Shown: positions 51,610-54,547 of the stretch, one piece after another
Layout of the letters: each line of letters opens with the position of its first letter
How positions within the stretch are numbered: the first letter of the stretch is position 1
Assembly: GCA_021802645.1 (NCBI GenBank)
Contig: JAJZRO010000012.1
Span: forward strand, 18,395-75,771
DNA length: 57,377 nt
Direction: 5' to 3'
DNA from: Deltaproteobacteria bacterium
GTDB lineage: Bacteria > Desulfobacterota > Desulfobulbia > Desulfobulbales > Desulfurivibrionaceae
Translations under genes and position numbers: made by a program
Notes under the pieces: model-generated
Told to the model about the DNA's origin: nothing
Databases searched by the model: none
The model's input: only the letters and a program-made list of their open reading frames with translations

Positions 51610-53079
51610 ATGCGGCGGGAACGAGTCGCGCCAGTCTTTCTCCTCGCCTGCGTGGTGGCCCTGGCCTACCAGTTGCTCATCACCTACGTGATCAACCCCG
51701 CCTTCACCAAGGCGTTTATCGCCAAAAACGAGGATGAGGCCCAACTCGTCGCCCGCCACATCACCACCATCATGATGGCGAACCAGCAAACCCTGCCCGC
51801 CGCTGCTGCGATCGCCGCCGTCGTCCCTCCCTTGGCCAAGGAATTTCATCTGGTGAAACTCAAGGTCTTTGACCCCAATGGCGTCACCATCTATTCCTCC
51901 GCACCCAACGAGGTCGGCGCCAGGAACGTCAACGAATACTTCCGCACCATCGTTGCCCAGGGACACCCGTACACCGCCTTGGTCAAGGAAGGGGAAAAGA
52001 CGCTGGGGGGCCGGCTGGCCGGCCTTGATCTGGTGGAAGCCTACGTGCCGATCATGCGCAACGACCGCTTCATCGGGGCCCTGGCTATCCATTACGATGT
52101 GAGTGGTTACCTTGAACGCCATAACCATATCCTTTTCCTGGCCACCACTCTACCGTTGCTCCTGATGTTCGCCTTCCTGCTCAGCGTGATCGTGGTGCTC
52201 TTTCTCGGCGAGCGGCGGCAGCAGGGGACTATCGCGGACAGCGAACAGCCGCCATCGCCGCATTTTTCGCTCTTTTTCACCCTGATCTCCATTTTCCTGG
52301 TGGAACTCCTGGTCATGTTCCTGCTGCGGGAATGGCATCCCACCTCCGGATTTCTCACCGCCCTGACGGATGCCCTGCTGCTGGCCCTCTTTGTCACGCC
52401 GCTGCTCTACCTTTTCATCAACCGCCCGCTGCTCCGGCACATTGCCGAACGCCGCAAAATCGAAGAGGCCTTACGCGAAAGCCAGGAGCGCTTCCACGAC
52501 CTGTTCGAGAACACCACCGACCTGATTCAAAGCATCGCCCCGGACGGCCGTTTCCTCTATGTCAATCCGGCCTGGCGGCGCGCCCTCGGTTACGAGGAGG
52601 AGGAACTCAAAGAGCTGCACCTTGCCGATATTCTGGCACCGGAGGAGACCGCCCACTGCCAGGCCGCCTTTGCGGAGGTGCTGTCCGGCAAGCAGGTGGA
52701 CAAGGTCGAAACCGTCTTCATCGCCAAGGATGGCCGCCGGGTCTCGGTGGAGGGCAATGCCAGCGCCAAACTCACCGCGGGCAAACCGGAGTATACCCGC
52801 GCCATTTTCCACGACATCACCGCCCGCAAGCAGGCCGAGGCCGATATGGAACGGCTGATCGCCGAATTGCAGAAATCGCTGACCGAGGTCAAGACCTTAA
52901 GCGGTTTGTTGCCGATCTGCTCCTGGTGCAAAAAGATCAGGGATGACAAGGGCTACTGGAACCAGTTGGAGAGCTACATCAGCCAGCATTCGGGCGTGGA
53001 CTTCAGCCATGGCGTCTGCCCGGATTGCCTGCGCAAACACTATCCCGAACTGCTGGAAGAGGAAAAAAAGAAGGATTAG
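51610..53079 (+). CDS. Membrane PAS sensor protein without a known output domain
   Basis: The 489-residue protein has an N-terminal helix (VFLLACVVALAYQLLITYVI), a periplasmic region of about 140 residues, three further helices (about 175-270), one PAS domain (about 290-410; FHDLFENTTDLIQSIAPDGRF) and a C-terminal 70-residue module LPICSWCKKIRDDKGYWNQ through VCPDCLRKHYPE with two CxxC pairs. This tail recurs on PAS proteins of Deltaproteobacteria; its role is not established. There is no kinase, cyclase or receptor domain. It begins 1 nt after hydA, so it is probably co-transcribed with the hydrogenase. Its stop overlaps that of the convergent hgcB. Confidence 0.85.
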   Translation: MRRERVAPVFLLACVVALAYQLLITYVINPAFTKAFIAKNEDEAQLVARHITTIMMANQQTLPAAAAIAAVVPPLAKEFHLVKLKVFDPNGVTIYSSAPNEVGARNVNEYFRTIVAQGHPYTALVKEGEKTLGGRLAGLDLVEAYVPIMRNDRFIGALAIHYDVSGYLERHNHILFLATTLPLLLMFAFLLSVIVVLFLGERRQQGTIADSEQPPSPHFSLFFTLISIFLVELLVMFLLREWHPTSGFLTALTDALLLALFVTPLLYLFINRPLLRHIAERRKIEEALRESQERFHDLFENTTDLIQSIAPDGRFLYVNPAWRRALGYEEEELKELHLADILAPEETAHCQAAFAEVLSGKQVDKVETVFIAKDGRRVSVEGNASAKLTAGKPEYTRAIFHDITARKQAEADMERLIAELQKSLTEVKTLSGLLPICSWCKKIRDDKGYWNQLESYISQHSGVDFSHGVCPDCLRKHYPELLEEEKKKD

Positions 53080-53408
53080 CCGCAGGTGCCCCGGCCCCTG
53101 GCCGGCGGCTCCCCACGGCCCTCTGCCGGCGTCATGGTGCAGCACTGCTCACCGGTGCGGCCGAGCATGGTGTTGATTACCGCCTGGGCGCACCCCACCC
53201 CCCGTTCAACCGCGATGGCGTCTACCGGGCAGTTGCTCATGCAGGCGCCGCACTCCATGCAGGCATCCCGGTCGACGATCCGCGCCCGCTCCTCCGCCAT
53301 CGCCAGGACCGCACGCGGACAAACCGTCAGGCAGATGCCGCAACCGATGCATTGGCGCTGATCGAGGTTGAGTGTCACCACGTTCCGCAGATAGACGAAT
53401 TTCTCCAT
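53076..53408 (-). CDS. hgcB: HgcB, ferredoxin partner in mercury methylation
   Basis: The 110-residue protein carries two [4Fe-4S] motifs: CIGCGICLTVCP (20-31) and CMECGACMSNCP (50-61); CMECGA is the HgcB signature. A vicinal Cys pair (CC at 89-90) follows, as expected for the mercury-binding tail, here followed by about 20 more residues ending TCG. It supplies low-potential electrons to the HgcA corrinoid and may bind Hg(II). It begins 11 nt after the hgcA stop. MEKFVYLRNVVTLN matches the usual HgcB start. Confidence 0.93.
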   Translation of the reverse strand: MEKFVYLRNVVTLNLDQRQCIGCGICLTVCPRAVLAMAEERARIVDRDACMECGACMSNCPVDAIAVERGVGCAQAVINTMLGRTGEQCCTMTPAEGRGEPPARGRGTCG

Positions 53409-53419
53409 CGCGTCTCCTC

Positions 53420-54523
53420 CTACATGAACCGCCCGGCCAGCCACAACCCCGCGCCGATCAATCCCGCGCCGATCTGGCAGGGCAGCGCGATGCGCATCTC
53501 CTTTTTCACCCCGGAGAGCGAGGTGAAGGTGGAGGCGCCGGTAAATTCCAGGGCCAGAAAGGAGGCAAGCGCGGGAGTCAGGAAAAACCACGCCCAGTGG
53601 TCCAAACGCGGCAAAGGAGTGAGGGCGAGCAGCGCCGCGGCCACGAGGCCGGCCAGTAATCCCTTGACCGCAAAGGCGCGGCCCGGCAGCCAGGGCAGCA
53701 GCAGTGGCGTCGCCACCGAACCCGCAATTACCCCGGCCCATAAGCCGGCCACCGGCCAGAATTCCTGGCCTACCAGAGTAGGCCAGAAGCCGGCAGCCCC
53801 GGTCAATGCGCGCAAGGCCAGCAGCACCAGGGAGAGGGGGATGGCCCATTTGAGGGCGATCGTCAACTCCACCGGGACCAGCACGGCCCGCTCGGCCAAG
53901 GTGAAGGTCTTGAGGCGCATGGCCGGCGTGGCCTGCTGGTTGTTGGCCAGAAAGGCCGGCAGATCGCGGGCGTATACCGGGCCGTAGACCACCTTGAAAC
54001 CGCTCTGTTTTCTCACCGCATGGGCCGCGATGCCCGGCGCGCTGAGCTGGGGAAGGAGGAGCCTGCGATGCGTAATGATCTGGGCAAGATCGACCGCCTT
54101 GATCCGGCCAACCAGTTCGGCGGTGCTGAAGAGGCCCTTGCCTGCCGCGCACCAGACATTGATGCCGTGGGTGTCGAGAACCAGAATCCAGGCCGCCAGG
54201 TCTTGGAGATGGCGGCGCAGGTGGTCGAAGCTCAGCTTGTAGTTGGCCGTGACCAGCACCGGGGCATCGGGGCCGGGGTGGTTGATCGCGTAGAGCCCTG
54301 GCTCCACGCTATAGGACATCCGGCCGATGCCGAGCCGGACCAGCAAGGCGCCCCAGCGGTCACGGCCGCCAAGATGCCCCTTCACCAGCGGCACCTCGCC
54401 CTGCGGGGTGGCGAGCGAACCGACCACAAAGGGCTGCTGCCATGGCGAACGGTCCGGCCTGGACCGTGTCTTGGGGCCTCAGCAGCTTTGCTGACCAGCC
54501 GAGGAAGGTGGAATCTGCTGCAT
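53420..54523 (-). CDS. hgcA: HgcA corrinoid protein for mercury methylation, candidate selenoprotein (in-frame TGA, codon 15)
   Basis: The cap-helix motif GINVWCAAGKG (Cys near residue 125) is diagnostic for HgcA; VTANYKLSFDHLRR, WILVLDTHG and HRRLLLPQLSAPG also match, and about five membrane helices follow in the C-terminal half. The methyl-cobalamin cofactor transfers a methyl group to Hg(II). The frame opens at ATG 54523 (AAGGG 9 nt upstream), reads MQQIPPSSAGQQSC, then TGA at 54481-54479, then GPKTRSRPDRSPWQQPFVVG into the conserved protein. The next possible start, GTG 54427, would omit PWQQPFV. A SECIS-like hairpin follows the TGA, so Sec at residue 15 is proposed. Sequencing error or a real stop are the alternatives. 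hgcB follows directly; mscS ends 24 nt upstream. Confidence 0.85.
54449..54467 (-). promoter_or_regulatory. SECIS-like hairpin downstream of the hgcA TGA codon
   Basis: On the coding strand ACGGTCC and GGACCGT form a perfect 7-bp stem around the loop AGGCC. The stem begins 11 nt and the loop 18 nt after the TGA, and G is the second loop base. These values fit the described bacterial SECIS pattern (loop about 16-37 nt after UGA, G in the first two loop positions). Confidence 0.6.
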
Positions 54524-54547
54524 AGTTTTTGCCCTTTTCTTTCCTGC

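Follow-up and report, generated by a model that had tools for sequence, protein, structure and literature searches.

Selenoprotein forms of the mercury methylation proteins HgcA and HgcB have been proposed before. According to a 2024 PNAS paper, Haft & Gwadz (2023) proposed that some homologues of both proteins are selenoproteins (PMC11588087), and the listing in a 2026 review gives the motif CU for HgcA (NF040863) and GVGU for HgcB (PMC13188914). The biochemical part of the 2024 paper, on HgcAB of strain ND132, reports SAM as the methyl donor (PMC11588087). A modelling study proposes that the transfer of Hg2+ or CH3Hg+ between the corrinoid and Cys73 runs over flexible C-terminal cysteines of HgcB, and that an outside thiolate removes the product (PMC7305189).

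Here we analyzed an hgcA gene with an in-frame TGA, located in a stretch of 57,377 nucleotides (the window) of a Deltaproteobacteria bacterium (assembly GCA_021802645.1, contig JAJZRO010000012.1, positions 18,395 to 75,771). The original prediction knew of no described selenoprotein HgcA; the 2024 paper and the 2026 review show that Haft & Gwadz had reported it in 2023. Because Sec-HgcA was proposed in 2023 and its motif CU was listed in 2026, the HgcA of the window is a well-supported new member of an already known selenoprotein family. Judged from the sequence comparisons below, the gene almost certainly encodes a selenoprotein, in which the TGA would be read as selenocysteine (Sec) under the guidance of SelB and a hairpin.

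Reading frame of hgcA and its in-frame TGA

Starting from ATG 54523-54521 on the minus strand, the frame reads 14 codons ending in Ser-Cys and then reaches the TGA; 17 codons further it passes the GTG, after which it is open to 53420. The in-frame TGA after Ser-Cys was thus as predicted, and so was the count of 14 codons before it, while the 18 codons that had been counted up to the GTG are actually 17. The features are collected in Table 1.

Table 1. Features of the hgcA-hgcB locus, in positions of the window
Feature	Position	Strand	Details and basis
hgcA, TGA taken as Sec	53420..54523	-	367 aa, putative Sec at residue 15; NF040863 match, alignment, AlphaFold model
TGA codon 15, probable Sec codon (motif QQSC-U-GPK)	54479..54481	-	sequence; Sec/Cys column in relatives
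SECIS-like hairpin	54449..54467	-	fold; comparison of Sec and Cys forms
GTG, first in-frame start past the TGA, fallback start	54425..54427	-	residue 33; sequence
hgcB ferredoxin	53076..53408	-	NF040864, 122.6 bits, cut-off 99; gene next after hgcA

The read-through product matched the NCBIfam HgcA model NF040863 with 418.6 bits (cut-off 275), and its corrinoid-binding domain is followed by a predicted helical membrane domain. The cap-helix motif, NVWCAAGK, fits N(V/I)WCA(A/G)GK, with C125 invariant in the alignment. When the window was crudely scanned for further Cys/Sec-like TGAs, many chance frames came up.

At the GVGC position, the HgcB of the window has Cys rather than Sec. Its tail keeps an upstream QCC and ends in TCG, where several close relatives end in SCC or ECC.

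Sec, Cys and pair-less forms among relatives

When the class was surveyed with the HgcA model, 226 of 258 genomes gave some match and 137 were above the cut-off. The 5' ends were read in 109 class loci, counting that of the window, and in 20 loci from another collection. Among the class loci, 63 (the window and 62 others) had Cys-TGA at the same place, 24 had Cys-Cys, and 22 had neither; in the other collection, L021 and L030 were also Cys-TGA. One further locus, L041, was dropped as a Sec form, as its TGA lies before an ATG, and CC is present at the true N-terminus.

In the alignment, the column of the TGA is Cys in Cys-form orthologues, mostly followed by Gly-Pro, and the nearest relatives share the motif QQSC-U-GPK. 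The SCC-type N-terminus that the original prediction ascribed to many HgcA proteins is right for this clade, and the alignment of Cys with the TGA that it had proposed to check was observed. An in-frame start was present upstream of the TGA in all 64 evaluable Sec-form loci.

A quick tree of the HgcA core was constructed without bootstrap; the Sec column was omitted, and L041 still counted as a Sec form. On this tree the Sec forms required four label changes and fell mainly into two groups, that of the window and a second one, with 45 members, nested with Cys forms. The Cys/Sec pair is lacking in a well-supported clade of 19 HgcA in the window's part of the tree, so HgcA in general does not depend on it. 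Where the HgcB of this clade was readable, it had GEGC in place of GVGC, and a co-change of HgcA and HgcB is possible there. The loci combining a pair-less HgcA with an HgcB of the GEGC...CC type were L052, L053, L062, L069, L082, L087, L090, L092, L115, L116, L118, L121, L122, L126, L134, L137, L138 and L147.

Selection on the N-terminal codons and the site of initiation

If translation began at GTG 54427, the region upstream would be untranslated and the TGA would be the ordinary stop of a chance frame. From this GTG an uninterrupted frame of 335 aa spans the whole HgcA core profile, and the first strand of the AlphaFold model begins at about the same place. Upstream of the GTG, however, the sequence behaves as coding. 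Among seven close relatives, the nine codons preceding the TGA had a pN/pS of 0.23 and the 18 codons following it one of 0.16, while the core beyond them had 0.32; therefore this N-terminal stretch evolves as translated protein. By this measure, the codons upstream of the TGA and those from the TGA to the GTG are under purifying selection. Moreover, orthologues with CC read straight through the region, and inspection of the sequence before the GTG revealed no Shine-Dalgarno-like sequence. A start at the GTG is thus very unlikely, though it is the best of the alternatives, and conservation in orthologues upstream of the GTG agreed with the earlier proposal that translation starts before the TGA.

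SECIS-like hairpin following the TGA

In bacterial SECIS elements, one of the first loop bases is a G, about 16-37 nt after the UGA. The window hairpin fits this layout: a perfect 7-bp stem (ACGGUCC/GGACCGU, offsets 12-18 with 24-30 from the TGA) encloses the loop AGGCC, whose GG lies 20-21 nt past the TGA (54459-54458).

We compared this region between Sec and Cys forms by a per-sequence hairpin test, which was used in place of fixed-register covariation. As descriptive counts only, because the relatives are not independent, 62 of 65 Sec forms had GG at offsets 20-21, compared with 1 of 31 Cys forms, and a stem score of at least 5 around it was found in 54 of 66 Sec forms (L041 still in) and 5 of 31 Cys forms, with about 10% in shuffles. 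The Arg codon at the loop position ended in GG in 61 of 62 cases; within the HgcA core, 41% of the Arg codons do so. This specificity of hairpin and GG for the TGA forms also argues against initiation at the GTG.

The window hairpin alone had modest stability relative to shuffles (z -1.76), and the mean fold energy was alike in Sec (-14.8 kcal/mol) and Cys forms (-14.6 kcal/mol). Covariation of the stem in a fixed register over all Sec forms gave 66% paired vs 56% in shuffles, because the register of the stem shifts by 1-2 nt between lineages. The Rfam model SECIS_1 (RF00031) gave no match in the whole genome and likewise none in 14 control genomes, so this search was uninformative; at a loose threshold, Rfam gave only chance matches in 54380-54540 and no SECIS model.

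Selenocysteine machinery in the genome

All components that had been named for checking in the original prediction, selA, selB, selD and tRNA-Sec (selC), were present. The genome carries selA (C23, 636 bits), selB (C35, 346 bits), selD (C4, 379.5 bits) and a tRNA-Sec with the anticodon TCA (C25). The selD of this genome is itself a Sec gene (L010:1501-2424), with an in-frame TGA in AAG-U-AAK, extended as AAG-U-AAKLSPG. The presence of selB discriminates little because the gene is nearly universal in the class (218/258 genomes). Among the genomes with Sec forms, 53 of 63 were above the selB threshold, and each of the other ten has tRNA-Sec or selA.

These results bear on whether the TGA could be read as some other amino acid, by near-cognate readthrough, by Trp or Cys suppression or under a recoded genetic code. 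An in-frame TGA ahead of a conserved domain would look identical in that case. The full Sec machinery and the Sec codon in selD speak for Sec, as do the SECIS-like hairpin after the TGA and the homologous residue, which is Cys, the usual partner of Sec, and not Trp; we consider another amino acid even slightly less probable than a start at the GTG. A sequencing error or a decayed gene, conceivable for a single genome assembly, has a negligible probability, since independent genomes share Cys-TGA at the same place (62 other class genomes and two further loci), which excludes chance or a base-call error, and the remainder of the gene is undamaged and keeps its invariant residues.

We therefore retain Sec at the TGA as the preferred reading. 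Sequence evidence supports the coding of Sec by the TGA, the hairpin, the presence of the machinery, and the Cys that orthologues have at this position. Translation would start at ATG 54523, and the hairpin directly 3' of the UGA would guide SelB and its Sec-tRNA to insert Sec at residue 15. Ahead of its corrinoid domain, the product would carry a flexible N-terminal tail with the pair Cys14-Sec15.

Proposed role of the Cys-Sec pair

The AlphaFold model of the window HgcA had a pLDDT of 90.2 and several long helices after residue 216. Low confidence was mainly confined to residues 1-18, which hold the Cys-Sec pair and are predicted to form a disordered, flexible tail. The pair probably serves in the handling of Hg(II) or methylmercury on this tail: it might bind or hand on Hg(II)/CH3Hg+, or might reduce a partner such as the HgcB cysteines, and selenium may be favoured there for its high affinity to mercury. 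It is plausible that the pair is a partner in the mercury traffic modelled for HgcB. As with HgcA already known, methyl transfer itself would rely on the corrinoid and the Cys of the cap helix.

A more far-reaching proposal is that the pair acts together with the HgcB cysteines as a dedicated relay for Hg(II) or methylmercury, that selenium directly tunes methylation in the class, and that the pair-less clade, whose HgcB has GEGC and not GVGC or GCGC, uses a different relay. We put this forward tentatively and regard it as rather doubtful.

Of the class loci examined, more had Sec than any other form (63/109), and therefore the supply of selenium could influence how these bacteria methylate mercury, which could link selenium and mercury there. 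Where gene calling takes the TGA for a stop, the start of HgcA is set at the GTG and the Cys-Sec tail is cut off; therefore the pair is missed in surveys and in heterologous expression.

Comparison with known systems

The closest known system is the selenoprotein HgcA (NF040863; Haft & Gwadz 2023, J Bacteriol 205:e00259-22), of which the 2023 reference protein is WP_250697417.1. As compared through the review listing (PMC13188914), the window HgcA has the same family model and the same Cys-Sec motif.

Cys-form HgcA, with its CCGP N-terminus, resembles the window HgcA in domain layout, in the position of the pair and, in most cases, in the Gly-Pro after the pair, but has TGC or TGT for the TGA and no GG-loop hairpin after it.

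The selenoprotein HgcB (NF040864, motif GVGU) is the partner of HgcA and likewise has a Cys-to-Sec exchange at a Cys implicated in Hg methylation, whereas the HgcB of the window has Cys there. The published motif was seen in the HgcB of L151, where a TGA stands at the GVGC position and the adjoining HgcA is of the Cys form.
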